Assembly (NCBI GenBank): GCA_903853735.1 | Contig: CAINUH010000460.1 | Location: 1-18,151 of the forward strand | Source of the DNA: an uncultured Desulfomonile sp. | GTDB taxonomy: Bacteria > Desulfobacterota > Desulfomonilia > Desulfomonilales > Desulfomonilaceae | Direction of reading: 5' to 3' | Length of the DNA stretch: 18,151 nucleotides | Shown here: positions 2,684 through 18,151 of the stretch, one piece after another | How the letters are laid out: each line of letters starts with the position of its first letter | Numbering within the stretch: the first letter of the stretch is position 1 | Notes under the pieces: generated by a model | Told to the model about the DNA's origin: nothing | Databases searched by the model: none | What the model saw: only the letters and a program-made list of their open reading frames with translations | Position numbers and translations under genes: made by a program

Positions 2684-4273
2684 TTAACGCGAATCGCTCC
2701 ACTTTCCATACTTTTCTCTGAGAATTCGATGAAGAATTTTACCAGTACCCGTGCGGGGCATCTCGTCATCCCCAATGAAATCCAATGTCTTTGGCACCTT
2801 GTAAGCTGCTATTTTTGAGCGTGCAAGTTTCCTGATTTCCTCTTTCAACTGGTCGCTCGGCTCCTTTCCCGCATGAAGAATGACCACTGCGTGGACCGCT
2901 TCACCCCACTTGTCGTGAGGTATGCCTATTACAGCCACATCCTTTACCGAAGGATGAGACCCCACGGCGTTTTCCACCTCGGACGGGAAGACATTCTCTC
3001 CCCCGGTAATGATCATGTTTGCTTTACGGTCGACCAAAACGTAGAACCCATCGGGGTCACGGTAACACATATCCCCGGCCGTGAACCACTCACCTTGAAA
3101 AACCTCTTTAGTTTTTTCCGGTAAGTTCCAATACTTGGTGAACATCTCTGGAGTTCTAGCGTACAGTTCGCCTACCTGGCCATCCGGAACCTCGTTACCG
3201 CTTTCATCCAGCACCTTAATGCGGTCTATACCAAAAATCTCCCTTCCGATGGTTCCCAACTTTCTCAGTTGATCCTCCGGCCTGCAGAGGGTTACCAAGC
3301 CTGCCTCGGTGGAGCCGTAGGCCTCCCACAGTTCCGCATTCTTGAAAAAATCCAGGACGGCAATCTTGGTGTCCTTCCTTATTGGAGCAGATGAGACCAA
3401 CAACTGACGCATGCTGGACACGTCATACCTTGTCTTTACTTGGTCCGGTAGAGAAAGGATCATGATGTAATGAGTCGGCACGAGAGAAGCGAAGGTAATC
3501 TTGTACTTTTCCACCGTGGCCAGGAAGTTTTCTGCGCTGAAACTGGCTTCGTTATAGACGCAGATCGGAGCCGACACAAGGGTATAAGGAAATGAATAGA
3601 AGATTGAATTCACGTGGCACATGGGCATTACCATTAGGGGTTTATCGGTAGGCCTGATACCGGTATTGGCGATGTTCACGTAATACATCGCCAGGTAGCT
3701 CTCGTGACTTCGCACCACGCCTTTAGGTTTGCCGGTGGTGCCTGAGGTGTACATAAAAGTCCACGGATCTTCTGCGTCAACCTCCGCGTCGGGCTCACCT
3801 GAAGATGCGGCCGCCAGCCATTCTTCGTAACCCACATACCCATTAGGGGTTGGATCGCCCGGTTCACCCAGGAATATGTAGTTACCAGCAGAAATGGTTA
3901 ATTTGTTTCGGATACCGTCGACAAGGCTTACAAATGGTTTCTCCACGATGATGGCTTTGCTATTGGAGTCATTGACTATGTACTCAATCTCAGGTCCAGC
4001 CAATCTGAACATGAGAGGCACGCAGATTTGGCCTGCTTTAGCGCATCCTGCATAAATTTCCATCCACTCGACCCTATTGTAAGCGAGGACTGCAAAACGG
4101 TCTCCCCGGTCGCATCCAATAGAAATCAAGGCATTGCCGACGCGGCAACTGCGCTCGTTCCACTCGAGAAATGTCAAAGCCTTGAATTTGTCTTGACAAC
4201 CCAGTTTGTCTGGAAACTGGACTGCCTGTTGACGAAGTACTCTTCCCATGGGTATCCATTTACTGATAGTCAT
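2684..4273 (-). CDS. AMP-dependent acyl-CoA synthetase/ligase
   Basis: A 529-residue adenylate-forming enzyme (ANL superfamily) that would activate a carboxylic acid with ATP to an acyl-adenylate and transfer it to CoA. Landmarks: phosphate-binding YTSGTTGKPKGV at 175-186; YGSTE at 319-323; TAGD at 398-401, with the ribose-contacting Asp; hinge region near VLVDRKANM at 412-420 followed by GGENVFPSEVE; and PRTGTGKI at 506-513 with the predicted catalytic Lys at 512. The start at 4273 is fixed by GGAGGAGG just upstream; the in-frame ATG at 4297 lies before that site and is unlikely. It is the last gene on this strand, 189 bases after the QmoB-like gene, and ends at a terminator. The gap contains a small hairpin, so it may have its own promoter. 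The substrate (medium/long-chain or aromatic acid) cannot be read from sequence. Soluble, no signal peptide. Confidence 0.9.
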   Translation of the reverse strand: MTISKWIPMGRVLRQQAVQFPDKLGCQDKFKALTFLEWNERSCRVGNALISIGCDRGDRFAVLAYNRVEWMEIYAGCAKAGQICVPLMFRLAGPEIEYIVNDSNSKAIIVEKPFVSLVDGIRNKLTISAGNYIFLGEPGDPTPNGYVGYEEWLAAASSGEPDAEVDAEDPWTFMYTSGTTGKPKGVVRSHESYLAMYYVNIANTGIRPTDKPLMVMPMCHVNSIFYSFPYTLVSAPICVYNEASFSAENFLATVEKYKITFASLVPTHYIMILSLPDQVKTRYDVSSMRQLLVSSAPIRKDTKIAVLDFFKNAELWEAYGSTEAGLVTLCRPEDQLRKLGTIGREIFGIDRIKVLDESGNEVPDGQVGELYARTPEMFTKYWNLPEKTKEVFQGEWFTAGDMCYRDPDGFYVLVDRKANMIITGGENVFPSEVENAVGSHPSVKDVAVIGIPHDKWGEAVHAVVILHAGKEPSDQLKEEIRKLARSKIAAYKVPKTLDFIGDDEMPRTGTGKILHRILREKYGKWSDSR

Positions 4274-4338
4274 GAAATCCTCCTCCAACGCCGTCAATAG
4301 CGGCTGCTTAGTGCTTTTTGAACTCCGAACGAAGCAAA

Positions 4339-4462: not shown

Positions 4463-6079
4463 CTACCCTTGACCGAATTCCCGAGTAGTACTGTGGCGCA
4501 AGATCTGTTTCAACGTTTGAACCGCCCTAGACAAATCTCCCTGTGTGTTACTGGCGAGAGTGGTGAACATCAATCTGAGTGCACCGATCCCGGCATGATC
4601 CAGCAACACCTTGGTAGCAGACACTCTTTCGGCAGCGAGGACAGTTCCGTAAATAGACGCACAATTTCCTGTGTGGCAGCCTGCCACAAGAACTCCATCC
4701 GCACCGTTTCGGAAAGCGGATAGTATGTGATCTTGGGCAATAGTTCCTGCACAGGGGACTATAATGGGAGTGAGATCCTCCCGAATCTGAAGGGTGGCCG
4801 ACTCAAAAGCCTTCTCCGCTGATCTACGGCACAGAAAAGCCACTATTCGGTCATCAGGACCGGCAACAGCCAAGGCAGCGGGTATTCTATCAGCAAGACC
4901 GGTTTGGCCCGCAGGCGGTTCCAGAGTTATGGCCCCCATGGGGCATTCGGCCGCACATATTCCGCAACGCTTGCAGCTAGCCGCGTCAACTTCGGCTCTC
5001 TTCCGGAAACTCATTGCGCCGTGTGGACACAGTCGGATGCATGTCAGGCAAATAGTGCACTTGCCCTGGTCCACCAAAGGAGCGCCGGGAAGTCCTACCA
5101 GTCCATTCTCTGAACTAGCAGTTTTCAGGGCCACCATGACGGCATCCAAGTCGCACTCCGTGGTAAGGGGATCGAAATTACCACGAGACGGCCCCACAGC
5201 TAAGATCCCGGCCTTGGGGGTGGCTACCCCTGAGAACCTGATGGACTCGGGCTGCAAAAAAGGCGCCATAACAGCCGACGATGGGATTGCTTCCAATAGT
5301 GGTTTTAGCGAAGAAGGTGGTCGGAGATTTTCGTCTACAACGACCAGGTCAGGAAGGAGCTCCATTTCGACGCCGAGAACCGGATCGCGGAAAACGACTG
5401 CCAAACCGTCCGTTCCGTTCTCAAAACCTGGTCCATCCTGGTCGAATTTGAAGAAAAGGACTCCATCGTTACGGGTATGCCGGTACTGTCTTTCGAGGCC
5501 CTGAGCAGCAACTTTGACGTCCCTGGCAAACACGTATGGCTGGACTCGGCAAATTTTTGTAAGCCGAGCGATTGCATCAAATACTCTTGCGAATGTCAAA
5601 GGATCAGATCCCCCTTCCAATCCGCAAAGGAAAACAACGTGAAACAAGTCTCCGCGAGGCTTGACCAGGTCTGCTCCATCATCAAGGATAGCTTCCAGGG
5701 CTGACAACGTAGTGACTCTATCTGAAGGATTAAGTCCATAATCGTTGTACTTGGGGACCGCGACTGCGGCGGGAACTGCTACGATGAAACCTGCCGATTC
5801 GGTTGACCGTCCAGTGGACGAGGCTACGATAGCCTCGAACCGACCAACAAATCCGCGTACCTCTTCCAACACGGCGTCCGCAGGTAGTTGAACACCTGTG
5901 CCGCCGTCAGTGTCATCTCGGTGCCCGAGAGCTATTACCTCAAAACCCTCATTTTCGAGTCGGCGGACTAGCTCGCTCGCTGTCTTGTCGCCACCCATCA
6001 CCAAGACGCGGTGCAAGAGGTTGCTCTCCGGTAGAACCGAGGGGTTGAGAAAAACTGATTCAAGAACCGGCGCCTTCAC
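4463..6079 (-). CDS. QmoB/HdrA-like iron-sulfur protein with fused MvhD domain, degenerate FAD site
   Basis: 538 residues. Residues about 20-330 follow the HdrA/QmoB plan, but the nucleotide-binding loop reads VMGGDKTASEL (27-37) instead of GxGxxG. The segment where HdrA proteins have QCVGSR and CSxVCC reads FLCGLEGG near 150-157, without the cysteine cluster. Two [4Fe-4S] ferredoxin motifs follow: CTICLTCIRLCP at 341-352 and CKRCGICAAECP at 369-380. The C-terminal 125 residues are an MvhD domain with Cys 417, 443, 468 and 473; the second Cys of the usual CxxC is Ser 420. Start GTG at 6079 overlaps the previous stop (GTGA), with GAGGAG upstream. QmoB proteins of sulfate reducers share the HdrA-ferredoxin-MvhD order, but this one is shorter and seems unable to bind FAD normally. 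It probably pairs with the QmoA-like protein encoded just upstream, carrying electrons through its clusters. Cytosolic; no QmoC-like membrane subunit is nearby. Confidence 0.75.
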   Translation of the reverse strand: MKAPVLESVFLNPSVLPESNLLHRVLVMGGDKTASELVRRLENEGFEVIALGHRDDTDGGTGVQLPADAVLEEVRGFVGRFEAIVASSTGRSTESAGFIVAVPAAVAVPKYNDYGLNPSDRVTTLSALEAILDDGADLVKPRGDLFHVVFLCGLEGGSDPLTFARVFDAIARLTKICRVQPYVFARDVKVAAQGLERQYRHTRNDGVLFFKFDQDGPGFENGTDGLAVVFRDPVLGVEMELLPDLVVVDENLRPPSSLKPLLEAIPSSAVMAPFLQPESIRFSGVATPKAGILAVGPSRGNFDPLTTECDLDAVMVALKTASSENGLVGLPGAPLVDQGKCTICLTCIRLCPHGAMSFRKRAEVDAASCKRCGICAAECPMGAITLEPPAGQTGLADRIPAALAVAGPDDRIVAFLCRRSAEKAFESATLQIREDLTPIIVPCAGTIAQDHILSAFRNGADGVLVAGCHTGNCASIYGTVLAAERVSATKVLLDHAGIGALRLMFTTLASNTQGDLSRAVQTLKQILRHSTTREFGQG

Positions 6080-7317
6080 CTATTCTCTCCTCTGCAAGAA
6101 CCCTTCAAGTATGAAGCTACTGTTCCGGCTGTCCTGATCGAGTGTGATACAGTGTCCTCAATTGACTTTGGGCCGTGAACGGCACCTGCCACGAAAACTC
6201 CTGTCGCATCAGTTAGAACCTCATTGCCATCCCTTCCCAAGAAACCATCCTGATTGATCTGTACACCCAGAAGTTCAGCAAGGGGAAGCAATTCCGGGTC
6301 GGGCGAAATGCCGACGCTCAGCACTACCAGGTCGAAGGACTCAGCGATCCGTTCCTCGTTTGATCCCAGGTATACAAGCTCCGGCCGACCGTCGGCTCCG
6401 TGACGAATTTCACCGGGAATGGCTCTGACCAGGCGCAAGTTCCGTCTAAACGCCTGAAAACGCGCCTCAAAGTCGCGATCAAATGATTGGATATCCATGT
6501 AGAAGATAGTCGGCTGGATTCCGTGAAAACGATGACGGAGCAACTCAGCGAGCCTCAGAGCATAACCACAACATACCTGTGAGCAGTAGTTTCTTCCTAT
6601 TTTTGCGTCCCTGCTTCCGACACATTGTATAAAGGCTACGGACTTCAATTTCGTTTCGCCTTCACCAGCGTCGAAATTGTCTCTCCTCAGAATGGAATCA
6701 AGTTCAAGTGCTGTGATCACTCCGTGGATACGTCCGTATCCGAATCGAGGTTTTTCGTGCGGGTCAAAGGCCTTGAATCCACATGCAAGGATGACCGTGC
6801 CAGCCTCGATCTTGACTTCCTCTGCTTCTCCATCCAGGTTCACAGCTCCCGCGCTGCAAGCCTTCTCGCATGCTCTGCACGATCCGTCCTTGAAAAAAAG
6901 ACAATTGTCCTCGTCAAGAGACATCCCGTTCTTGACGAAGGTGTTTGAGAGTGCGTCAGGAACTGGACATACTTCCAAACACTTGCCGCACTGGTTACAC
7001 TTATCAGGATAAATTCTTAAGGGCTGTCTATTTAACGTGACGCTAAAAGAACCGTTTGATCGTTCTACTTCCGTGACAGTGGATCTCAGAGACCAACCTA
7101 TTCTATTGGAAGCATCTGAACTCTCAAGTTGGTCCTCTAGTAGGCACGCACCGCATCTTTGGCATTGGTCAGTCGCCTTGCAACAATAGAGGGCCACATG
7201 CCCTCCGGGATAAGGATTCTTCTCCACAACAACGGAGCGAAACCCGAGTCGCGAAAGTTCAATCGCACAACGTGTACCGGCGATCCCACCACCGATAATA
7301 ACAGCATCTGTCATCAT
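6076..7317 (-). CDS. QmoA/HdrA-like FAD and iron-sulfur oxidoreductase subunit
   Basis: 413 residues, close to the usual length of QmoA. The FAD-binding fold begins at residue 4 with VIIGGGIAG (6-14). Cysteine clusters follow: CKATDQCQRCGAC at 46-58; CNQCGKCLEVCP at 107-118; CRACEKAC at 147-154, with C139 nearby; and the HdrA signature QCVGSRD (231-237) with YCSQVCC (244-250). A second FAD-contact segment, GVFVAGAVHGPKSI, is at 373-386. It should hold one FAD and several [4Fe-4S] clusters and act as the flavin core of an electron-transfer complex. It starts 8 bases after the metF-like stop and ends overlapping the QmoB-like start, so the three are co-translated. A general HdrA name is equally defensible; the QmoA comparison rests on size and on the MvhD-fused neighbour. 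Two adjacent ATGs (7317 and 7314) are possible starts. Confidence 0.8.
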   Translation of the reverse strand: MMTDAVIIGGGIAGTRCAIELSRLGFRSVVVEKNPYPGGHVALYCCKATDQCQRCGACLLEDQLESSDASNRIGWSLRSTVTEVERSNGSFSVTLNRQPLRIYPDKCNQCGKCLEVCPVPDALSNTFVKNGMSLDEDNCLFFKDGSCRACEKACSAGAVNLDGEAEEVKIEAGTVILACGFKAFDPHEKPRFGYGRIHGVITALELDSILRRDNFDAGEGETKLKSVAFIQCVGSRDAKIGRNYCSQVCCGYALRLAELLRHRFHGIQPTIFYMDIQSFDRDFEARFQAFRRNLRLVRAIPGEIRHGADGRPELVYLGSNEERIAESFDLVVLSVGISPDPELLPLAELLGVQINQDGFLGRDGNEVLTDATGVFVAGAVHGPKSIEDTVSHSIRTAGTVASYLKGSCRGENR

Positions 7318-7325
7318 AATCCGGC

Positions 7326-8195
7326 TCAGAGCAGCGATCCGATCTCCAATTCCCTACCATTGGTGCTAATACAAACGCCTGTAACTCTTCCTGACTCCCT
7401 CAACAGTGAAACCAGCTTCCGAACGTGTTCAACTGAGGTTGACAGAAAATCATCCTCACCGTCGTCCCTCCACGCCCTTACGACAGAGTCAGGAATAAAA
7501 GTACCTGGAATAGACCCGTCGTGGTACCGCACAATTTCCGCATAGGACGGCAACAGAACCCCGGCAATAATCTTCACGGGCATGTCCTTCGCAGCGTCAA
7601 GAAACGGACCCAACTGGTCAATGGTGAAAATGGGTAGAGTTACGAAAAAATCCACGCCGGCTGCAACTTTCTTTCTGGCTTTCATCAACTGGGGCCCAAG
7701 AGGATCCGCAGTGGCACAGACGGCCGCTCCAAGGCAAAAAGATAGAGCGCCTTCCAGTGCGTTACCGCCACCATCTCTCCCCTTCTCCATTTCCCTAATC
7801 ATGGAGATTAGCTGAACCGAATCTAAATCGTAAACTGGTTTTGCTTCCGGATGATCGCCAAAGTTGAAATGATCGCCTGAAACGCACAAGATCGAACCTA
7901 TCGATAACGCGGCACAACCAAGAGCCGTCGATCCTAGCGCAATCCTGTTACGATCGCGACACGAGATGGTCATAATAACATCGTTACCATCTCTGCCGAG
8001 TCTTTCGGCCAGCACAAGAGAAGAAATACCCATCCTTGCAGACTGGTTGTCCGAGACAAGTAAACTGTCGACTTTACCTTTCCATGAGGAAATCCACGAA
8101 AGGGTGGACGAAAGTTCAGGACTCTTGGGAGGAATCACCCTCGCCAAAACTTGAAAGTCGTCTGAGGCTAGTCGTTCGTGAAAACTTTTAACCAA
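7326..8195 (-). CDS. metF: Methylenetetrahydrofolate reductase-like protein (MetF family), altered active site
   Basis: A TIM-barrel MetF homologue of 289 residues if started at TTG 8195, which has AAGAGG seven bases upstream and overlaps the metV stop by 8 bases (TTGGTTAA). In-frame ATGs at 8222 and 8255 would add 9 or 20 residues but have poorer ribosome-binding sites. Family landmarks: ISCRDRNRIAL (77-87), VSGDHF (105-110, the Asp corresponding to E. coli D120), and GDHPEAKPVYDLDSVQ (113-128). Two conserved positions differ. The Glu before PP (E. coli E28) is Arg 19 in ARVIPPK, and the Gln of the TQ motif (E. coli Q183) is Leu 187 in VTLPIF. Family knowledge says MetF reduces 5,10-methylene-THF using flavin-bound electrons; with these changes the reaction may differ. 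It lies directly after metV, as in organisms where MetV and MetF form one enzyme with Hdr-type partners. Confidence 0.75.
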   Translation of the reverse strand: MVKSFHERLASDDFQVLARVIPPKSPELSSTLSWISSWKGKVDSLLVSDNQSARMGISSLVLAERLGRDGNDVIMTISCRDRNRIALGSTALGCAALSIGSILCVSGDHFNFGDHPEAKPVYDLDSVQLISMIREMEKGRDGGGNALEGALSFCLGAAVCATADPLGPQLMKARKKVAAGVDFFVTLPIFTIDQLGPFLDAAKDMPVKIIAGVLLPSYAEIVRYHDGSIPGTFIPDSVVRAWRDDGEDDFLSTSVEHVRKLVSLLRESGRVTGVCISTNGRELEIGSLL

Positions 8196-8865
8196 TATGG
8201 AACCTCTTTTGATAAGCGGCATGAACAACTTTTCCCGGCCGCCGGCACATGTCATATTTCATCGGCGAAACAGTCATTTCTTGCAACGAGCCCCTGGATT
8301 GCTTGTCAAGACGTTCATATATCATGGTCCAAGCACAGTTTCTTTCAGGGTCTACTTCACATTTCCCGTGTACGGTTCCGCAGCATGGACCATTCAGAAG
8401 CCCCTTGGAACACATCGTGACCGGACAAATGCCGCCAGTGATCCCAAGGTAGCATTGGTTGCAGGCTCGGCAGCGCTCCGTCCACTCCCCGGCTGCTTCC
8501 GCTACTCCTATGAAACTGGTATTTACGCCAGGGATGACGGGCACACTGGGATATTCCTCGGACAAAAACTGGATGCCCGCGCCACAGGCGAGCGATACCA
8601 CTGCGTCAACCTGAGAAACCTTGTCTTTGAAAAGGCGAAGAAACTCACGATCGCACTGTCTTTCAACCGTAGCCGCTGTAGCATGCAAGTCCGTCTTGTC
8701 AATGCCGGCGGCCAACATGAGTTGGGATGCCAGAATACCCGCTTCCTTTTCTCCCCCGGCCAAGCATACGGCAACGCATGTTCCGCATCCTGCTACCAAC
8801 ACGCGGGAATAACCAACCAGCATGTTCTTGACTTCAGGGAAGGGCTTCAGCTTTGCAACGATCAT
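8188..8865 (-). CDS. metV: MetV: methylenetetrahydrofolate reductase C-terminal domain, iron-sulfur/zinc partner of MetF
   Basis: 225 residues from the ATG at 8865, which has an AGAGG site six bases upstream; an in-frame TTG at 8901 is less likely. The N-terminal half has GCGTCVAVCLAGGEKEAGILA (26-46 region). The C-terminal half has the cysteine-rich signature CRACNQC (132-138), GGICPVTMCSKGLLNGPC (144-161) and GKCEVDPERNCAW (167-179). MetV subunits bind Fe-S clusters and sit between MetF and its electron source in acetogens and related anaerobes. One small oddity is GPCCG where GPCGG is usual. It is the first gene of the locus A transcript and its stop overlaps the metF-like start, so a 1:1 complex is likely. 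Confidence 0.85.
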   Translation of the reverse strand: MIVAKLKPFPEVKNMLVGYSRVLVAGCGTCVAVCLAGGEKEAGILASQLMLAAGIDKTDLHATAATVERQCDREFLRLFKDKVSQVDAVVSLACGAGIQFLSEEYPSVPVIPGVNTSFIGVAEAAGEWTERCRACNQCYLGITGGICPVTMCSKGLLNGPCCGTVHGKCEVDPERNCAWTMIYERLDKQSRGSLQEMTVSPMKYDMCRRPGKVVHAAYQKRFHIG

Positions 8866-8925
8866 CCGCGCCTCTTGGAGAAAGGTTATAGCCAGTGCCA
8901 AAATTATTGCCGCTTTCGCTTTCTA

Positions 8926-8942: not shown

Positions 8943-9197
8943 GGGCAAATGGCGGTTGGGGGGATTCGCTCGCGTACAACCGTGTTTCATTCGGGCAGAA
9001 ATTTTGGCAACTGGTATAGAATTAACCACACTACATGACACAAATAACAAAGCGATTTCCGAGTGTCAAGACAAGCTCATCGGTTTGGCACACTCAGGAA
9101 CCTGTCAGACCGGTTCGGGATCATGATCATTGATTGCAGGAGGATTCCCAGATTTTTAGGCGAAGATTATGACAGGCACGGTGACGTGATCACTCCA

Positions 9198-9513
9198 TCA
9201 AGACTTCGACAACTGTCAGGAAGAGATCGGAATGCGCAGTTTGAGTCTATCAGAGGTAAAATTCAAGAGCATCTGTCGAATCATCAGCCTGCCATATCAG
9301 TGGATACGAAGAAAAAAGAGTTGGTGGGAAATAGTCAATTTGATATAGCTTCAACCTGTACTGAAACGGGGCTCAGGGTTCGTTGCGAACTTGACACGCG
9401 TACCTATCCTAAAGGACTCAAGGTGGTCGAACAAAGAGAAGGCTCAAATCAAGATCACAAGACATGACTTCCATGGAGAATGGAACTACACCATGAGCCC
9501 AAAGAGCACATAA
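9198..9513 (+). pseudogene. ISAzo13-family transposase remnant, internally deleted and frameshifted
   Basis: Three blocks characteristic, from memory, of ISAzo13-type transposases survive in order. Around 9198-9270 is GRDRNAQFE. At 9285-9332 is QPAISVDTKKKELVGN. After about 9345 is TETGLRVRCELDTRTYPKGLKV. The reading frame then shifts at about 9425 (one extra base in AAGGTGGTCG) and continues in the next frame as NKEKAQIKITRHDFHGEWNY, ending at TAA 9511-9513. In intact family members the second and third blocks are separated by well over 100 residues that include catalytic acidic positions, so a large internal deletion has occurred. The N-terminal DNA-binding part is also missing. It cannot be active and marks an old insertion between metV and fumC. 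Confidence 0.8.
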
Positions 9514-9785
9514 CCGTGTCAGAGTCAATTCCCGTTGACGATGGGCATGAGTTCATCATGTGTATTATACAACCAATGTAGCGGGCTCGGACTAACCGTA
9601 CCGGGGCTCACGTTTCGGAGGACTTGCTCCCACAATACCCGGCGACGTGGTATGCAGTAAAACGAATCGGACATTACTTCTGGCACTGGTCATAGGTTTT
9701 CATTCTTGTTTTTCATGTCTTCACCGTAACACAACCAAGTCTCTCTCCCAACCTATTGCGGAGACATAACACGAGCGAGGCAGTC

Positions 9786-11198
9786 ATGACGAAGTCGAAA
9801 AATAAAACCAGGACCGAATCTGACAGCATGGGTCCGATAGAGGTCCCTGCAGACAGGTACTGGGGTGCACAAACACAGAGGTCTTTAAAATACTTCAATA
9901 TCGGAAGAGACCTGATTCCCGAAGAAGTGATCAAAGCCTTTGGGATAATTAAGAGAGCAGCGGCCCTCACCAACCGCGATCTTGGAAAGCTCCCTTCTGA
10001 AAAATCTGATCTTATTATCAAAGCTGCTGAAGAGGTGAGACATGGCAAACTTCAAGACCACTTCCCGCTTCATGTTTGGCAGACCGGAAGTGGCACTCAG
10101 ACCAACATGAATGTTAATGAGGTCATTGCGAATAGGGCCATTGAACTGGCTGGAGGGAAGCTGGGCAGCAAAGACCCTGTCCATCCCAACGATCATGTCA
10201 ACATGTCCCAGTCATCCAACGATACCTTTCCCACCGCAATGCACGTGTCGGCAGCGATGAAAATTCATGACTCCCTTCTGCCGGCAGTAAAAAAGATGAG
10301 GGATGCACTGAATCAAAAAGCTGATGAGTTCAAGGATATCGTTAAGATAGGACGAACTCATCTTCAGGATGCTGTGCCGCTGACTCTGGGCCAGGAATTC
10401 TCAGGATATGTGGCCCAGTTGGACGCTGATTTGGAATGCATCAAGAGAGTTCTTCCCGATTTGTACCAGCTCGCTTTAGGTGGGACCGCAGTTGGCACCG
10501 GCCTCAACACCCATAAGGAATTCGCCGAACGAGCCGCCAAGTATATCAGTGAAATAACAGATTTACCCTTTGTTTCCGCGAAGAACAAATTTTCCGTTCT
10601 TGCGGCGCATGATGCCATAGTGATGGTTAGTGGCGCCCTAAAGACGCTTGCATGCTCGTTGATGAAGATAGCTAATGATATCAGATGGCTGGGGTCAGGC
10701 CCTCGATGTGGAATTGGCGAGTTGACTCTACCGGCCAATGAACCGGGATCCTCCATCATGCCTGGAAAGGTGAATCCCACACAGTGCGAAGCCATGACCA
10801 TGGTGGCCGTGCAGGTGATGGGATGCGACACTGCTATCTCTGTTGCGGGCAGTCAGGGAAATTTTGAATTGAACGTCTTCAAGCCGATTATGATTTTTAA
10901 TTTGATGCAGGCCCTTGATTTGTTGACCGACACGTGCAACTCCTTCACAGATTTCCTCATTGTTGATTTGCGGCCAAACCTGAAAAGGATCGATTACTTA
11001 GTACGAGAATCACTCATGCTGGTGACTGCTCTCAATCCTGTGATAGGATATGACAAAGCTGCAAAAGCTGCTCATAGAGCCCAACACAATGATATTACCT
11101 TGAAGGAGGCCTGTTTGGCCCTGGGCTATCTGACCGACTCGGAATTTGAAGAGGCCATTCAGCCCTACAAGATGGCGCGGCCCCACAGCGAAAGTTAG
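9786..11198 (+). CDS. fumC: Class II fumarate hydratase
   Basis: 470 residues, the normal size for class II fumarases, which interconvert fumarate and malate without a metal cluster. Motifs: GSGTQTN at 101-107; [14 protein letters not shown] at 133-146; [16 protein letters not shown] at 189-204; and the signature [11 protein letters not shown] at 321-331, whose flexible loop carries the catalytic Ser (322), with Lys 328 and Asn 330 contacting substrate. The ATG at 9786 has GCGAGG five bases upstream; an in-frame TTG at 9756 is less likely. [13 protein letters not shown] and the PGKVNPTQ loop fit fumarase rather than aspartase or argininosuccinate lyase. It is the only + strand metabolic gene here, between two minus-strand Hdr loci, and converges on mvhD with a 60-bp gap in which I see no clear terminator. 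Role: the TCA cycle or succinate-fumarate-malate steps of propionate-type metabolism. Confidence 0.95.
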
Positions 11199-11258: not shown

Positions 11259-11687
11259 TTACGGTTCGCTAGGTGATACATCCCCCACAGGAGACGGACC
11301 CAATTCCTGAAGTCGTGTTGCCATTGTCAGGACAGCCTGAACGAACTTTTGGGCCATAGACGCACTCATGTTGAACATCTCGAGACGACGAGGATCCATA
11401 CCTCCATCCTCGATCAACTGTTTCGTGTATTCTACAACCTGGCGAGCACGGAGGTTGCCCTCAACGAAATGGCATTCACCTTCCATGCAGCCGGCCACGA
11501 ACACTGCATCGGCCCCATGGCGAAACGCCTCCAACAGGAGGATCGGTTCAATCTTCCCCGTGCACAAGAGCTTTACTATCCGCACATTGTGAGGATACTG
11601 AATCCTCATAGATCCGGCCAAGTCAGCAGCGTTATACGCACAATACGTACACGTGAAAGCTATAATTTTCAGATTGTCATGATCCAT
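11259..11687 (-). CDS. mvhD: MvhD-type [2Fe-2S] electron-transfer subunit
   Basis: 142 residues, the size of stand-alone MvhD (methyl-viologen-reducing hydrogenase delta subunit). The five family cysteines are all present: CTYC at 13-16, C42 in LLCTGKIE, and C67 and C72 in GCMEGEC. MvhD passes electrons between a donor module (hydrogenase, formate dehydrogenase or pyridine-nucleotide oxidoreductase) and HdrA. It begins 15 bases after the HdrA stop with only a weak ribosome-binding site, so it is the last gene of the hdrCBA-mvhD operon. No hydrogenase large or small subunit adjoins it. Compared with the MvhD domain fused to the QmoB-like protein at 4463-6079, this copy keeps the complete cysteine set, with the same spacing between the shared cysteines. 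Confidence 0.93.
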   Translation of the reverse strand: MDHDNLKIIAFTCTYCAYNAADLAGSMRIQYPHNVRIVKLLCTGKIEPILLLEAFRHGADAVFVAGCMEGECHFVEGNLRARQVVEYTKQLIEDGGMDPRRLEMFNMSASMAQKFVQAVLTMATRLQELGPSPVGDVSPSEP

Positions 11688-11702: not shown

Positions 11703-14700
11703 TCAGATAGCCTGAATCTTCGCGAGTACCTGCTCGTCCGTATAATGTTGTAGTCTGATGGCCTTTCGTGGGCAGACACTGGCGCAGATGCCACATCCTT
11801 GACAGGATGCGGCCTCTATATAGGCACGGTTCGTTCCGGCATCAATCGTCGGAACGTTGTAAGGACATACTCGCACGCATGTCAGGCACGACGCGCAAAG
11901 GTCCGGGTCGACCACCGAGACTTCACCGGACACCTGGAGGATGTCTTTGCTCAGGACAGTGGCTGCCCTGGCCGCAGCGCCCTTGGCCTGGGCTATGGTT
12001 TCGGGCAGATACTTCGGACCATGAGCCAATCCGCACAGGTAAATGCCTTCGCTTGCGAAATCCAACGGACGCATCTTCATGTGCGCTTCCATGAAAAACC
12101 CCACGTCATTACGAGGGAGTTTCATTAGGGCTCCGAGGGCTTCTGTTTGAGGATGGGGCCTAATAGCGGCGCTGAGGACAACTCGATCAGCAGGAATAGC
12201 CACCTCACCTCCAAGGATCTGGTCGAATACAGTGATCATCAACCTCCCAGCTCCTTCTTCGACCACAGGCTTACGATCCCTCTGGTAGCGGAGGAAAATT
12301 ACACCCGCCTCTCGTGCCTTCCTGTAATGGAGTTCCTTGAACCCGTAAGTCCGTATGTCTCTGTACAGAATAAAAACATTTCTAGTTGGATCCATTTGTT
12401 TGAGAGCCAGAGCATTCTTCACCGCGGTTCCGCAGCACACCCTGCTGCAATAGAGATTGTCCGGCTCGCGGGAACCCACACACTGTATCATGACGACGTT
12501 CTTTACTCCTGCCATCTTGTCCGGCTCGTCATAAATACATCTTTCCAGCTCAGTTTGGGTCCAGACCTTTTCTGATTTTCCTCTCAAATATTCGGTGGGT
12601 TCATATTCGATCCCTCCCGTAGCTGCTATGATTGCACCGATCTCCGTGTCGATCTCCTCACCGGTCTTACGGTTCCTGACCTTCACCAGGAATCGTCCCA
12701 CGTGCCCCGAATATTCCCTCAACTCAGAATTCATCAACACACTTATCTTGGGGTGAGACAGTGTCCTCAGTTGGAGTCCTTCCACAAAAGCCGTTACATC
12801 GAGTCCGGTTAAGCTGCGACGCAGGTTCAAGGCCGTGCCTCCAAGGAGTCCTTCTCTCTCAACCAAAAAAGCCTCGAATCCCTGATCGGCCAAGGATAGA
12901 GCGGCTGTCATGCCTGCAACACCGCCGCCTATAACCAGCCCTCGCCGTACGACCTGAAACGAGCGCTCACGAATCGGCTCCAACTTGGCTGCCCGGTAGA
13001 CCGCCATGCGGACCAGATCCTTAGCCTTTTCAGTGGCTGCTTCAGGTTCTTGCTGGTGAACCCAGGAGCATTGGTCGCGTATGTTAGCCATCTCAAACAG
13101 GTACTTATTGATTCCAGCATCAAGGCAAACCTCACGGAAAAGTGGTTCGTGAGTCCTCGGGCTGCAAGACGAAACTACCAACCTGTTGATTCCGTGTTCT
13201 CGGATTTTATCCGCAATAGCCACAGTGGTGTCGGTGGAGCAGGTAAAGAGGTTATGTTCGGCAAATACCACATGAGGAAGGGTCGAGGCGTATTCCATCA
13301 CTTCTTGTACGTTCACAATACGTGCAATGTTTGAGCCGCAATGGCAAACAAACACACCAATCCTGGGGTCTTCGCCGCGCACGTCTCTTTCTGGAGTAAA
13401 GGTCTTCGCTGTAACTATGGTGTTGCGGACCTCACTGAGCAGCTCGCCCGAAAGCGCGGCAGCAGACGCTGCGCCCATTACCGATTCCGGAATGTCCATT
13501 GGCGCCTCGAACGCGCCTGCGACAAATATTCCAGGCTTGGTGGTCCTATTTGGAGAGAATTCGCCGGTTTCTGCAAAACCGAATCTGTTCAGATCGATTC
13601 CGCATCTCTGGGCAAGCTTCCTGGACGAAGCCGAAGGCTCAATCCCGATGGACAAGACCACCATCTCAAATGTTTCGTTAGTCATGGTTCCGTCTTGGCC
13701 CCGGAATGTTACTGCCAGGTTTTTTGTTTGCTGTTCCTCCTTGACCGTTGAGACAATGCCCTTACGGTATCTCACGCCAAGGTTGGCCTCTGCGTTCTCG
13801 TAGTAGAATTCGAACCCTTTCCCGAAGGCACGAATGTCATTGTAAAAGATGGTAGGCGAAACTCGTGAATCATGTTCCCTTGCAATGATCGCTTCTTTGG
13901 TAGCGTACATGCAGCAAACACTCGAACAGTAGTCACGATCGCACGTCACGTCCCGAGAGCCCACGCACTGAATCCAGGCGATCTTCCCCGGATGACCGCC
14001 GTCGGAGGGTCTGCGTATCTCTCCAGAAGTCGGGCCGGACGCAGAAAGAAGGCGCTCGAATTCCATGGATGTCATTACGTTGGCCATGCGGCCGTAACCG
14101 TATTCACCCTTAATTTCAGCCCGAAATGTATCAAAGCCGGGTATTAGTATGACTGAGCCTATTTCGAGTGCTATTTCCTCCGGCATTTCGTCATGGCACG
14201 TCGCTTTAGGCTGGCAAACGCGAACACATTCAAGGCACTCGGAACATATCCCACAACCAAGGCAGCGTTCAGTCTCGGCTTGCACCGCAGCCTCGTCAAA
14301 ACCCACTACAGTCTCCAGAAAATCTCTCTTTCGCAGATCAGCCGGGATTTCTGTCTTACATCTCCTGGGGGAAGGCACAACTCCCTTGATATCCGGTTCG
14401 GCGATGGGCCGCTCTAATTGTCTACCTGTTCGGAGGTCCTCGCCTTCCAGGAATCTCCGGATTGACTCGGCGGCTTCTTTTCCGCCGGCCAATGCCTGGA
14501 TCACCGTCTTCGGGCCTGTTACTGCGTCTCCTGCTGAAAAAAGTCCTTCCACTGACGTTGCGCAGGTTAAAGGGTCTACGCTAATGCTGTTCCCGCGAAC
14601 TGTCTCGACGTTTTCTAGTAATTCCAACAGCCTCTTATCGACTCTCTGGCCAATTGCTAACATCACGGTGTCCGCTTCCATGCCCATGGAGCACTGGTCA

Positions 14701-16130
14701 TCGAAACTCGGATTGAATCTGCCATCCTCGTCAAAGACACAGACACACTGGTTGAAGCATACTCCTCTCACCCCAACACCGGTTTCACTAGGCACAAAAT
14801 CAAAGGGACCCCAACAATTGTGTACAGTAACTCCTTCGGCCTCTGCCTCGTGGATCTCGTCTGGATGTGCCGGCATTTCGTCTCGATCTTCCAGGCACAC
14901 CAGGTGCACCTCGTCCACACCGAGCCGGACGGCAGTTCGCGCAACGTCTATAGCTACGTTGCCGCCGCCTATGACCAGGACCCTTGTCCCCAAATCGGTC
15001 TTCTTGCCCTGGGCAGTGTCTCTAAGAAAATCCACGCCCTGGACAACTCCTGGCGTATCCTCCCCGGAAATTCCCAGTCTCGCTCCTGAAGAGCAGCCCA
15101 CGGCCAAAAAAATGGCATCATAACCTCGGTCCCGCAGATCCTGAAGGGTCCTATCCTGGTCCAACGCGGTGGAGCATCGAATGTCCACACCGCAGCGTCT
15201 TATGTAGTCGATATCCCTTTTGAGAATAGCCTTCGGAAGTCTGTATTCGGGGATGCCATAACGAAGAACACCGCCGGGCTCCGCCTCCTTTTCGAAAACG
15301 GTGACTGGATATCCGTTGAGGGCAAGATAATAAGCGCAGCTTAGGCCGGCAGGGCCGGCTCCGACGACTGCGACCTTCCGGTCCTTTGCCGGCTGGATCT
15401 CCGGCGTATCCCCGGGGTCGTCCTGTTCCGAGAGGAACCATTTTACGTCATTGATGGCAATAGCTTCGTCAACTTGGGCCCTGGAACATTGCTGCTCGCA
15501 AAAACGCACGCACACCCGACCGCAAACCGACGGGAGTGCACAGTCCTTTCGAATCAGGCTAAGAGCTTCCTTATATTTTCCCTTCTTCGCCAGGGCCAAG
15601 TATCCCTGAACGTGGATGTGAGCTGGGCACGCTGCTTTGCATGGACTCACGCCGGCCTTTTGTATCACCGCTTTGTTGGGTATGGCCTGAGGATAAAGTT
15701 TGTGTATAGCCTTGCGAGGTTGAAGCCCCTCGTCAAATTCGTTAGGGATCTCCACAGGGCACACTTCAAAGCAATCTCCACATGCGTTGCATTTCTGCAT
15801 GTCCACGTAGCGAGGATGCTTGAGTATCCGAGCGCTAAAATGTCCCGCTTCTCCTTCAACGGCGAGAATCTCCGAATTGGTCAAAATTTGTATGTTGGGG
15901 TGCTTGTCGACCTCGATCAGCCTGGGTGAAATGGTGCACATGGAACAGTCATTGGTGGGGAAAGTCTTGTCGAGTTGAGCCATGCGGCCGCCTATAGCGC
16001 TTTTCTCTTCCACCAGGTAGACTTTGTACCCGGCATTTGCCAGGTCTATTGCTGCCTGCATGCCCCCTATACCGGCTCCCGCGACCAATACTGCGCCAAT
16101 CTTATCCTTATAATCGGGATGCTCTTTCAC
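11703..16130 (-). CDS. hdrA: HdrA fusion: QmoA/HdrA module interrupted by a GltD-like NAD(P)H module, plus full HdrA
   Basis: 1475 residues from GTG 16130, whose GTGA overlaps the hdrB stop; an in-frame GTG at 16187 would add 19. Module 1: FAD loop VAGAGIGGMQAA (16-27), PTNDCSMC (59-66) and ferredoxin CNACGDCFEVCP (114-125). It is then interrupted at about 155 by a GltD/NfnL-like unit: N-terminal cysteines (CKAACPAH, then CGRVCVRFCEQQC), second FAD loop VVGAGPAGLS (255-264), NAD(P) loop VIGGGNVAIDVART (386-399) and GLFSAGDAVTGPK. Module 1 resumes with CLGCGICSECLECVRVCQP (623-641), QCVGSRD (721-727) and CSSVCC. Module 2, from about 920, is a full HdrA: CHCGSN, SSCSPRTHEP, FAD loop VIGGGVAGM (1066-1074), QCVGSRE (1216-1222), CSRVCC, and ferredoxins CASCLTCVRVCP (1412-1423) and CQGCGICASVCP (1443-1454). 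Three flavin sites are predicted. HdrA is the bifurcating subunit of HdrABC; the insert should let NAD(P)H connect directly. No frameshift; the modules form one continuous frame. Confidence 0.92.
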   Translation of the reverse strand: MKEHPDYKDKIGAVLVAGAGIGGMQAAIDLANAGYKVYLVEEKSAIGGRMAQLDKTFPTNDCSMCTISPRLIEVDKHPNIQILTNSEILAVEGEAGHFSARILKHPRYVDMQKCNACGDCFEVCPVEIPNEFDEGLQPRKAIHKLYPQAIPNKAVIQKAGVSPCKAACPAHIHVQGYLALAKKGKYKEALSLIRKDCALPSVCGRVCVRFCEQQCSRAQVDEAIAINDVKWFLSEQDDPGDTPEIQPAKDRKVAVVGAGPAGLSCAYYLALNGYPVTVFEKEAEPGGVLRYGIPEYRLPKAILKRDIDYIRRCGVDIRCSTALDQDRTLQDLRDRGYDAIFLAVGCSSGARLGISGEDTPGVVQGVDFLRDTAQGKKTDLGTRVLVIGGGNVAIDVARTAVRLGVDEVHLVCLEDRDEMPAHPDEIHEAEAEGVTVHNCWGPFDFVPSETGVGVRGVCFNQCVCVFDEDGRFNPSFDDQCSMGMEADTVMLAIGQRVDKRLLELLENVETVRGNSISVDPLTCATSVEGLFSAGDAVTGPKTVIQALAGGKEAAESIRRFLEGEDLRTGRQLERPIAEPDIKGVVPSPRRCKTEIPADLRKRDFLETVVGFDEAAVQAETERCLGCGICSECLECVRVCQPKATCHDEMPEEIALEIGSVILIPGFDTFRAEIKGEYGYGRMANVMTSMEFERLLSASGPTSGEIRRPSDGGHPGKIAWIQCVGSRDVTCDRDYCSSVCCMYATKEAIIAREHDSRVSPTIFYNDIRAFGKGFEFYYENAEANLGVRYRKGIVSTVKEEQQTKNLAVTFRGQDGTMTNETFEMVVLSIGIEPSASSRKLAQRCGIDLNRFGFAETGEFSPNRTTKPGIFVAGAFEAPMDIPESVMGAASAAALSGELLSEVRNTIVTAKTFTPERDVRGEDPRIGVFVCHCGSNIARIVNVQEVMEYASTLPHVVFAEHNLFTCSTDTTVAIADKIREHGINRLVVSSCSPRTHEPLFREVCLDAGINKYLFEMANIRDQCSWVHQQEPEAATEKAKDLVRMAVYRAAKLEPIRERSFQVVRRGLVIGGGVAGMTAALSLADQGFEAFLVEREGLLGGTALNLRRSLTGLDVTAFVEGLQLRTLSHPKISVLMNSELREYSGHVGRFLVKVRNRKTGEEIDTEIGAIIAATGGIEYEPTEYLRGKSEKVWTQTELERCIYDEPDKMAGVKNVVMIQCVGSREPDNLYCSRVCCGTAVKNALALKQMDPTRNVFILYRDIRTYGFKELHYRKAREAGVIFLRYQRDRKPVVEEGAGRLMITVFDQILGGEVAIPADRVVLSAAIRPHPQTEALGALMKLPRNDVGFFMEAHMKMRPLDFASEGIYLCGLAHGPKYLPETIAQAKGAAARAATVLSKDILQVSGEVSVVDPDLCASCLTCVRVCPYNVPTIDAGTNRAYIEAASCQGCGICASVCPRKAIRLQHYTDEQVLAKIQAI

Positions 16131-16981
16131 GCGCCCCACCCCTTGCTTCTCAAAAGCGGAACAGGATCCACAATATGTTTTCGCCACCAGGAACGCGTTT
16201 CAGGAACACTCATGGCGACCGCCAATAGCTCCGTGATGTAAACCACCGGCATCTGGTAACTCGTATTCCTCTCCCGCTCGATCTCCTTCTGTCTTGTGTC
16301 CAGGTTAGCCTGGCACATGGGACAATCTGTGACTATGAGTTCGCCGCCGGCCTCTCGAGCGGCTTCGAACAAATTACCCGAAAGCCTTCGGACCACATCC
16401 GGCCGAGTCATAGCCAGGCTTCCTCCGCAGCAGTCCGTTTTGTAACTCCAGTTGACTACGTCGGCTCCGAGAATGTTCAAGATGGCGTCCATTTCCCTTG
16501 GGTTTTCAGGATCAGGATGTTTCATTGCTCGAGGGGGGCGTACGGTCAGACAACCGTAATAGGGAACTACCTTGATGCCGGCGAGAGGATTATTGATATT
16601 TGTCTTTATCTTTTTCTGGATCTCGTCTTTCAATAGCATCTCGTTGATATGAACGACCTCAACCCGTGTCAGCGCTGCAGCGTGGGGATGATCTGCCGGA
16701 TGCTCTAGTAGGTGCGCCTGGCAGAGCCTCAAGCGATGAAAACAAGCCGCACACGGGGTGAGGAGGGGCCTGTCGGATTGGGATGCAATGAGCAAGTTTC
16801 TGGCCGGCAGTTCCACAGCAGCGCGAGGATGCATTATATGGGCACTGCTGGCTCCGCAACAGTTCCAGTCGTCCAGTTCAATCAGATCTACTCCCAGATG
16901 CCGAAAGACGGCCACTATCCCCACATCGTAATCATGGGCTGTACCATGAAGGCTACAGCCAGGATAATAATTCAGTTCCAT
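16127..16981 (-). CDS. hdrB: Heterodisulfide reductase subunit B-like protein (two CCG domains)
   Basis: 284 residues carrying two complete CCG (cysteine-rich) domains. The first is C9, C41-C42 (WNCCGAS), C77 and C80. The second is C143 (YGC), C184-C185 (DCCGG), C220 and C223 (DCPMC). In archaeal HdrB these hold two noncubane [4Fe-4S] clusters that cleave a heterodisulfide. In bacteria without coenzyme M or B the substrate is unknown and may be another disulfide or a protein thiol. ATG at 16981 starts 17 bases after the hdrC stop, and the TGA overlaps the hdrA GTG. All catalytic cysteines are retained, so a working HdrB is expected. Soluble; no membrane segment. Confidence 0.92.
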   Translation of the reverse strand: MELNYYPGCSLHGTAHDYDVGIVAVFRHLGVDLIELDDWNCCGASSAHIMHPRAAVELPARNLLIASQSDRPLLTPCAACFHRLRLCQAHLLEHPADHPHAAALTRVEVVHINEMLLKDEIQKKIKTNINNPLAGIKVVPYYGCLTVRPPRAMKHPDPENPREMDAILNILGADVVNWSYKTDCCGGSLAMTRPDVVRRLSGNLFEAAREAGGELIVTDCPMCQANLDTRQKEIERERNTSYQMPVVYITELLAVAMSVPETRSWWRKHIVDPVPLLRSKGWGA

Positions 16982-16998: not shown

Positions 16999-17523
16999 TC
17001 AGGCCACTATGTCGCGGACCTCTCTGCGGCCCTTAATTCTCTCCGGAATCAATCTTATTCGCCCTCGAGCGAACAACTCGCGTCCCAGTTCCATATCCTC
17101 AAAGAAAGTGCCCGTCTTGATTTTATACCTGGCGATCATTTCTATTTCGTGCACCCGCCCGTGGGTGCGGATCGCTTTCATGAATTCTTCGTGAAACGCC
17201 CTCACCCGAGGCAGGCTGACGGTTCCCTGTTGCATGGACATCCTTCGGAGGGCATCCATCACGTGAGCCAAATCTATGTCGTTGGGACAACGCGTGGAGC
17301 AGGTTATGCAAGAAGCGCACACCCATATAGTCTCCGATCCCAGCACCTTATCCCTTTGCCCAAGTTGAATGTGCCGTATCAAGAGATTGGGAGGCAAGTC
17401 CATGGCATAAGACACGGGGCATCCACTGGTGCATTTTTCACAGTGAAAACAGGCTGAGACCTTGACACCAGACAGGCCCTCGACCTCGGAAAGAAATGCA
17501 CCGTCGTCCGGACGAATGGGCAT
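16999..17523 (-). CDS. hdrC: Heterodisulfide reductase subunit C-like ferredoxin protein
   Basis: 174 residues from ATG 17523. Two [4Fe-4S] ferredoxin motifs, CFHCEKCTSGCP (25-36) and CASCITCSTRCP (69-80), sit in the typical HdrC helical frame, without the membrane cytochrome domain seen in HdrE- or DsrM-type fusions. HdrC carries electrons between HdrA and HdrB. Start choice is uncertain: ATG 17523 has a GGAAG a few bases upstream, ATG 17550 has none but would fit the promoter, and the TTG at 17571 lies at the predicted transcription start and can be excluded. It is the first gene of the hdrCBA-mvhD operon. Confidence 0.9.
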   Translation of the reverse strand: MPIRPDDGAFLSEVEGLSGVKVSACFHCEKCTSGCPVSYAMDLPPNLLIRHIQLGQRDKVLGSETIWVCASCITCSTRCPNDIDLAHVMDALRRMSMQQGTVSLPRVRAFHEEFMKAIRTHGRVHEIEMIARYKIKTGTFFEDMELGRELFARGRIRLIPERIKGRREVRDIVA

Positions 17524-17576
17524 AGAGTCTTCCAAGAGAACCTTCTCCATCAAACTTAATCGTAAAAACAAGCTTC

Positions 17577-17605
17577 ACATTAGTCTTGGTAACAGGTGCT
17601 GTCAA
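17577..17605 (-). promoter_or_regulatory. Sigma-70 type promoter of the hdrCBA-mvhD operon
   Basis: On the minus strand a consensus -35, TTGACA (17605-17600), is followed by exactly 17 bases and TAATGT (17582-17577), which keeps the three most conserved -10 positions. Transcription would start near 17570, leaving a leader of about 20-46 nt to the two candidate hdrC start codons. No clear operator palindrome was seen around it. Confidence 0.6.
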
Positions 17606-17734
17606 GTCTGCGGGGAAATGGCGATCCGTCGTGTAAATGTAAATAGCTTCTCGCTTCGTGTCATGCTCAATCTTCCTATGGGCGGGTATTCTTTGGAATA
17701 TGGTATAGGCTATCAATGTGTTCCTAGAAATAAG

Positions 17735-18151
17735 GACGAAGAGGTCGTCGAACTCTACCGTTACGTGGCCGAAGAAAAGAATATCGTTATCAGCACAGCC
17801 TTTACGGAAGACTTGCAGGTGACTGTCGATCCCCACAGGATACGGCAGGTGCTGGCGAATTTGCTGGATAACGCAGTGAAATATACCCCGGATGGGGGGA
17901 GAGTCGATGTTGAGACTGGGCAAAGCCCGAAACAGGTGATTATAAGAGTCAAGGACACCGGTAGCGGTATCCCTGAGGAAGAAATCCCCAAAATCTGGAA
18001 CCGTCTCTATCGGGGGGACAAGAGTCGCTCACAACGGGGACTTGGACTGGGGCTCAGTTTGGTTATGTCCATTGTCAAAGCACACGGCGGATACGTTGAA
18101 GTCTCCAGCCAACCCGGATCCGGTTCCACGTTTACCGTATATCTTCCCCAA
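17735..18151 (+). CDS. Sensor histidine kinase, ATPase domain only (5'-truncated; runs off window)
   Basis: From about 17735 to the window edge the + frame encodes the C-terminal ATPase part of a histidine kinase. It has a linker helix (EEVVELYRYVAEEKNI), the N box NLLDNAVKY, the G1 box DTGSGIP, WNRLYRGDKSRS, the G2 box GLGLGLSLV, and a terminal GSGSTFTVYLP, which usually lies at the very end of such proteins. The expected phospho-acceptor (HisKA) helix with its H-E-x-x-T/N motif and any sensor or HAMP domain should be upstream, but the sequence before about 17735 shows neither. The frame stays open upstream, antisense to hdrC, but without recognisable similarity. In-frame ATGs exist at 17618, 17663 and 17678 without good ribosome-binding sites. 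I read it as a decapitated remnant produced by rearrangement; a small stand-alone ATPase protein is less likely. Confidence 0.65.

Follow-up and report, generated by a model that had tools for sequence, protein, structure and literature searches.

According to the available text of PMC9430772, the TrxR-like domain of HdrA from the hexaheteromeric methylene-THF reductase (MTHFR) of Moorella thermoacetica is interrupted by a GltD domain, and the subunit contains eight [4Fe-4S] clusters in addition to three FAD sites and a single NAD(P)H site. Within this enzyme, HdrA was described as the NADH-oxidizing subunit and MetF as the methylene-THF site (PMC8760232, citing Mock et al., 2014); in the portion of PMC8760232 available, coupling of NADH oxidation to methylene-THF reduction by the Moorella complex was not observed in vitro, and no second acceptor was found. 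For the Sporomusa complex, the HdrA of which is without a GltD insert, the available text of PMC9430772 states that co-reduction of NAD(P)+ or ferredoxin was not seen. The GltD-in-HdrA architecture is thus not new, as it has been published for Moorella, for ANME-1 and for Bathyarchaeota in the sections of these sources available. Like the protein described here, type III HdrA of methane-metabolizing archaea (PMC12054007, in part) and HdrA 9-11 of ANME-1 (PMC9012536, in part) carry a GltD/NfnB-like unit within the inserted ferredoxin; unlike it, type III HdrA otherwise resembles a single (type I) HdrA, and the longest HdrA given in the survey section of PMC12054007 measures 1182 aa as compared to 1475 aa here. 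As far as the available text of PMC9012536 goes, no MetF is clustered with HdrA in its ANME-1 genomes.

Here, a stretch of 18,151 nucleotides from an uncultured Desulfomonile sp., referred to as the window, was analyzed and encodes a real, intact, further member of this published architecture (Table 1). A protein of Neomoorella thermoacetica (P0122, 1487 aa) showed 49.6% identity to the window HdrA over 1466 residues, and both its length and its residues E696, K750, E1204 and K1246 agree with the Moorella HdrA as given in the available text of PMC9430772; these residues correspond to E711, K764, E1215 and K1257 of the window protein and are all conserved. The M. thermoacetica protein and the window HdrA are of the same length class, carry GltD in the first TrxR-like domain, have a second module without inserted ferredoxin as well as E/K pairs in both modules, and display the motif CLE in the NAD(P)-binding lobe; moreover, hdrCB, mvhD and metVF genes are found in both systems. 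Besides the divergence in sequence, the window differs from Moorella in that fumC sets its metVF genes apart and that two additional Hdr genes come after them. The tandem modules with GltD in the first are those of a Type IV MTHFR HdrA, and all six genes of the Type IV set are present in the window, in two blocks split by fumC. We therefore read the window protein as the HdrA of a Type IV MTHFR (HdrCBA-MvhD-MetVF), in which NADH would be oxidized at the insert and electrons would pass via HdrA to MetVF, with a probability of about 0.78.

Table 1. Genes of the window and parts of its HdrA chain. Residue numbers refer to the 1494-aa ORF; subtraction of 19 gives those of the 1475-aa protein.
Feature	Position	Strand	Remarks
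DNA methylase-like protein	778-2049	+	
Acyl-CoA ligase-like protein	2684-4297	-	
HdrA C-terminal half fused to MvhD	4463..6079	-	538 aa; same place in L010, L015
Short HdrA-like protein	6076..7317	-	413 aa; TrxR-like + ferredoxin, no N-terminal domain; same place in L010, L015
metF, methylene-THF reductase	7326..8255	-	
metV	8188..8901	-	PF12225; start not certain
ISAz013-type DDE transposase piece	9063..9467	+	adjoins fumC, in segment splitting the gene block
fumC	9756..11198	+	TIGR00979, 767.7 bits > cut-off 664.75; between mvhD and metV
mvhD (FlpD)	11259..11687	-	PF02662, 1e-44
hdrA with inserted GltD	11703..16130	-	1475 aa from GTG 16130; mechanical ORF to 16187, 1494 aa
C-terminal 2[4Fe-4S] ferredoxin	11754..11927	-	residues 1421-1478
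Module 2	11928..13388	-	residues 934-1420; N-terminal HdrA domain, second TrxR-like FAD domain, no inserted ferredoxin
Module 1, second half	13398..14249	-	residues 647-930; second cysteine cluster of inserted ferredoxin, remainder of TrxR-like domain
Inserted GltD/NfnL/StnC-like unit	14250..15656	-	residues 178-646; Fe-S domain, FAD + NAD(P) sites
NAD(P)-binding lobe, CLE type (VHLVCLEDRDEMPA)	14643..14981	-	residues 403-515; predicted NADH; apparently exchanged part
Module 1, first half	15657..16106	-	residues 28-177; TrxR-like FAD Rossmann part + first inserted-ferredoxin cysteine cluster
hdrB	16127..16981	-	two complete CCG motifs
hdrC	16999..17571	-	start not certain
Sensor histidine kinase, part	17462-18151	+	

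The hdrA frame (11703..16187) is an uninterrupted minus-strand ORF of 1494 aa. GTG 16130 is its likely start codon because of the overlap with the hdrB stop and because the database protein P0001, which is 100% identical to the window ORF over 99% of the query, has 1475 aa. A search of the protein database at E-values up to 1e-50 returned at least 7994 related proteins (7996 candidates scored), not all of which necessarily carry the insert, and 120 of these were listed as the homologue set. A search of genome contigs with the single protein gave no match, and a search with an alignment gave 582, the best 80 of which form the locus set L001-L080. Among the listed homologues, 118 of 120 are 1464-1529 aa long, and an HdrA-GltD ORF of at least 1150 aa was recovered from 79 of the best 80 of the 582 loci, yielding 80 ORFs as L037 contributes two. 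A survey of this architecture and the chance of separate genes joined by misassembly had both been raised in an earlier note on this DNA; recurrence of this chain among the listed homologues as well as in loci from named genome records excludes a chimeric assembly, and with these independent relatives on one side and no point found in its favor on the other, an assembly error fusing separate genes has a negligible probability. The HdrA frames of several loci are split (L008, L009, L014, L021, L030, L033, L036, L037, L038 and others), in 26 of 26 cases among the best 80 of the 582 loci by a single in-frame TGA, which in L008 coincides with window C84 (HdrA C197) and probably encodes selenocysteine. 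In several loci, mvhD is likewise split in two.

The domain anatomy of the chain was resolved by phmmer against HdrA of M. marburgensis (8rvu). Residues 34-177 align to HdrA 155-298 and residues 647-871 to 300-524, so that the 469 residues 178-646 lie between the adjacent HdrA residues 298 and 300, within the inserted ferredoxin; residues 934-1111 align to 5-182 and 1355-1493 to 515-651. The claim that a GltD-like unit splits module 1 and that HdrA sequence resumes behind it is thereby borne out, and an appended rather than inserted unit is ruled out by the alignment to neighboring HdrA residues. By contrast, the description of what follows as a second full HdrA was wrong: an N-terminal domain is missing from module 1, and module 2, although it has this domain as well as the C-terminal ferredoxin, lacks the inserted ferredoxin, in the place of which no cysteine occurs between C1040 and C1217. 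A complementary pattern, what one module lacks being present in the other, was noted for Moorella HdrA in the available text of PMC9012536. The cysteines of the first half of module 1 (C81, C84, C133, C136, C139, C143) are invariant in 32 aligned sequences; those of the inserted ferredoxin flank the insert, with C133, C136, C139 and C143 before and C648, C651, C654 and C658 after it; another two conserved cysteines are C642 and C645. C84 aligns with HdrA C197, which module 2 lacks. The second half of module 1 holds C741, C754, C758 and C759, and the N-terminal domain of module 2 holds C948, C950, C983 and C1008. The glutamate and lysine used in the available text of PMC9430772 to mark possible bifurcating flavins are kept as a pair in both TrxR-like FAD domains (E711/K764 and E1215/K1257). 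The chain thus shows the TrxR-like FAD domain with inserted ferredoxin, the cluster cysteines and the E/K flavin residues of HdrA. NCBIfam scores were below cut-off for both HdrA2 (954.5 bits vs. 1100) and HdrA (692.8 vs. 1400); judged by these scores, the chain is HdrA-like and lies below the orthologue cut-offs of archaeal HdrA/HdrA2. The predicted structure (pLDDT 88.7, pTM 0.83) matched one HdrA fold over 419-422 residues, spanning residues 1-895 of the model, at 1.5-1.8 Å and one GltD fold over 470-473 residues at 1.6-1.8 Å, the former being built around the latter.

Both Rossmann domains are present in the insert (Pfam Fer4_20 181-255, Pyr_redox_2 271-569), together with the N-terminal Fe-S domain and the conserved cysteines of GltD/NfnL-type flavoproteins, and NCBIfam PRK12771 was recognized over residues 172-669 with 504.6 bits, slightly below the cut-off of 516. 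The GltD-like part is therefore complete; a missing FAD or NAD(P) loop was not seen in the domain search, and the expectation of three flavin sites, a single NAD(P) site and numerous Fe-S clusters in one chain is supported. R316 of the insert aligns with Arg187 of Thermotoga maritima NfnB, which contacts FAD N5, and K249 aligns, as counted by hand, with Lys170 of StnC, where the cluster next to FAD was described with three cysteines and this lysine; both R316 and K249 are invariant in 32 sequences. The aligned arginine might suggest that the insert is a bifurcating NfnB, which would give the chain two kinds of bifurcation site, as proposed for ANME-1 HdrA-NfnB fusions in the available text of PMC9012536. 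We consider this unlikely, given that the same arginine (R239) occurs in StnC, the flavin of which is reported as non-bifurcating, so that the residue is not decisive, that the insert is closer to NfnABC/StnC-type chains (342, 341 and 297 bits) than to NfnB/NfnL (243 and 227 bits), and that no NfnA/NfnS-like gene was present among the window genes scanned. The insert nevertheless differs from StnC of Sporomusa ovata (8oh5) and NfnABC (9bov, 9n5u/9n5v), which stand outside HdrA and have a YRR lobe, StnC being in addition joined to a NuoG-like domain.

In the window, hdrC-hdrB-hdrA-mvhD lie in a row on the minus strand and metVF about 2.4 kb away, with fumC on the opposite strand in between; the order is hdrCBA-mvhD, the fumC segment, metVF and the two further Hdr genes. 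The latter, a short HdrA and an HdrA-MvhD fusion behind metF, presumably resemble QmoA/QmoB in build. Since the fumC segment separates metVF from hdrCBA-mvhD, their link rests on relatives: the order hdrC-hdrB-hdrA-mvhD-metV-metF was found in seven of the best 80 of the 582 loci, many contigs of which end early (L001, L010, L015, L040, L051 from Moorella stamsii, L070 and L079), and L010 and L015 hold the same eight genes in the order of the window without the fumC segment. Two complete CCG motifs, as present in the window HdrB, are those of disulfide-reducing HdrB. Together with the fact that metVF is not directly adjacent, this would fit a complex HdrCBA-MvhD not tied to MetVF, which instead reduces a disulfide, for example of DsrC or another thiol protein, with NADH. 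Such a function appears improbable in view of the single block in which metVF follows mvhD in the seven loci and of L010 and L015, which, except for the fumC segment, keep the eight-gene order. Hence, the assignment to a Type IV (Hdr-type) MTHFR is retained as the most likely one, with a gene block that in the window is split by fumC and an adjoining transposase remnant, and MetVF is the likely partner of the window HdrA complex.

The gene set, the architecture, the intact cofactor motifs and the predicted fold are direct observations; in the electron path that we propose on this basis, NADH would be oxidized at the GltD FAD of the insert, by analogy with Moorella, and electrons would pass from the GltD clusters to the split ferredoxin and on to the HdrA flavins, as suggested by the predicted fold and by StnC. 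An HdrA-type flavin with the E/K signature may then bifurcate or confurcate. One branch would lead via HdrC-HdrB to MetVF and the couple methylene-THF/methyl-THF, as gene order and pull-downs with Sporomusa proteins suggest, the pull-downs bearing on the HdrC-HdrB to MetVF link according to the available text of PMC9430772, and the other branch to a putative low-potential partner. The direction in vivo might be oxidation of methyl-THF. In methanogen HdrA, the inserted ferredoxin is the site of ferredoxin reduction, which GltD was proposed to block (PMC12054007, in the part available), and we consider such a block likely.

That NAD(P)H could enter at HdrA itself, as the earlier note had it, is supported by the Moorella HdrA of the same architecture, which is reported to oxidize NADH. 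Its further claim, that a separate FlxABCD or hydrogenase donor would no longer be needed, fails as a general rule. In FlxABCD-HdrABC, which like the proposed window system is an NADH-linked HdrABC, the donor is a separate complex, whereas no Flx or hydrogenase gene was found among the window genes scanned. Within the best 80 of the 582 loci, however, BLAST detected FlxA/B-like genes in 18 (L006, L013, L016, L017, L022, L023, L032, L035, L041, L045, L054, L058, L062, L063, L064, L069, L075 and L077, all with a YRR lobe), which rules out that the insert replaces Flx in general; a NiFe-hydrogenase small-subunit-like neighbor occurs in L001 and L034, and MvhD matches were obtained in 70 of the 80. 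HdrC and HdrB were matched in 45 and 23 of these loci, many of which are cut by contig ends, and MetV/MetF in 46 of 80 and not in the other 34, many contigs again being cut; both Met and Flx matches were present in 3 of 80 and neither in 19. The labels of these best 80 loci comprise Thermodesulfobacteriota, Bacillota, Chloroflexota, Acidobacteriota, Gemmatimonadota, Planctomycetota, Spirochaetota, Lentisphaerota, Cloacimonadota and others. Tandem HdrAs without insert are also present in related genomes, beside an aldehyde:ferredoxin oxidoreductase-like gene and CCG/Fe-S (HdrBC-like) genes in L081 and L084, with a Flx-like neighbor in L086 and L089 and with a NuoF-like neighbor in L088.

Two versions of the NAD(P)-binding lobe exist among the inserts, labeled by aligned position (L042 was dropped as mis-called and L060 left unlabeled). 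Among the window protein and the 120 listed homologues, 79 lobes are CLE, 39 YRR and two other, and one was not found; YRR accounts for 86 of 197 labeled rows. The window lobe is 35-39% identical to those of the YRR relatives P0009-P0015 and P0017-P0019, as compared to 52-90% in the other regions. For pairs with an HdrA identity of 80-90%, the median lobe identity was 78% between same-type lobes (n = 321) and 41% between different-type lobes (n = 35), and the different-type median was 41-47% in every HdrA identity band from 40 to 90%, labels for these medians being taken from a stricter motif pattern that left out 13 rows. On trees of 196-197 rows, the fewest label changes required were one on the lobe tree without the motif columns, 27 on the HdrA-part tree (15 at support 0.99) and 17 on the GltD FAD-part tree (4 at support 0.99), and given the starred branches of an IQ-TREE tree of 79 locus rows, the CLE label must have changed at least 14 times, with one mis-called row included. 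Because one change suffices on the lobe tree whereas the HdrA tree, at support 0.99, needs at least 15, these comparisons suggest that the lobe has probably been exchanged repeatedly between CLE and YRR versions; point changes at the motif alone would be insufficient, as the whole lobe differs, and repeated replacement would suffice. In some cases, a portion of the GltD FAD domain seems to travel together with the lobe, since at support 0.99 its tree requires 4 changes and the HdrA tree 15. One lobe change suffices among the close relatives that form a clade with the window (CLE rows as one clade, AU p = 0.637). As to where the exchanged lobe came from, similar scores were obtained for HdrA-type and stand-alone lobes beyond its own clade. 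No treatment of lobe exchange in HdrA-GltD was found in the literature searched, outside of which most subscription papers lie.

With respect to the nucleotide, YRR is present in the solved StnC, T. maritima NfnB, Pyrococcus furiosus NfnL, 9bov and 9n5u, of which StnC and T. maritima NfnB are NADPH enzymes and P. furiosus NfnL is an NADP(H)-bound entry. It is reasonable to assign NADH to CLE and NADPH to YRR, the CLE side being derived by analogy with one enzyme, that of Moorella. The fingerprint GGGNVA of the window protein is of the form GxGxxA, read as the NADP form in the available text of PMC12054007, and with many inserts of the family being YRR (86 of the 197 rows), NADPH rather than NADH might be thought the nucleotide of the window protein. 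This is doubtful, as the window has CLE in place of the YRR seen in the NADP(H)-linked StnC, T. maritima NfnB and P. furiosus NfnL, and as Moorella, a reported NADH oxidizer, combines CLE with the same GGGNVA. The GxGxxG/GxGxxA rule of PMC12054007, as given in its available text, was rejected for telling NAD from NADP here, since most CLE and YRR lobes alike read GGGNVA. The window protein would thus use NADH rather than NADPH. MetV/MetF context was not clearly lobe-dependent in the best 80 of the 582 loci (22 of 31 CLE and 25 of 47 YRR rows; Fisher p = 0.24 in a table with L042 still counted as CLE). FlxA/B-like genes accompanied YRR lobes only in these loci (18 of 18, CLE 0 of 31; Fisher p = 2e-5), a link that is not significant given shared ancestry, with 4-5 independent contrasts and 5 changes of Flx context on the tree. 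One contig, L037, carries two divergently oriented HdrA-GltD genes, the lobe being CLE in one and YRR in the other, and mvhD and metV/metF matches lie near each of them.

Taken together, we lean towards viewing HdrA-GltD as a modular nucleotide adaptor, in which a lobe of about 110 residues would be swapped, with HdrA and much of the FAD domain staying in place, thereby re-wiring the complex between NADH and NADPH. If this is true, Flx-linked YRR complexes would be NADH/NADPH/ferredoxin transhydrogenase-like, and the window system with CLE and MetVF would be the NADH-linked form. Natural pairs with HdrA parts 73-80% identical and differing lobes (window/P0009, L024/L029, L019/L031 and P0042/P0111), together with L037 and its two versions, provide a map for probing how NAD(P)H feeds into Hdr-type bifurcation, and the uninserted tandem HdrAs of related genomes offer the before-insertion comparison. 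If the lobe classes hold, the nucleotide of the least understood methylene-THF reductases would be readable from sequence.
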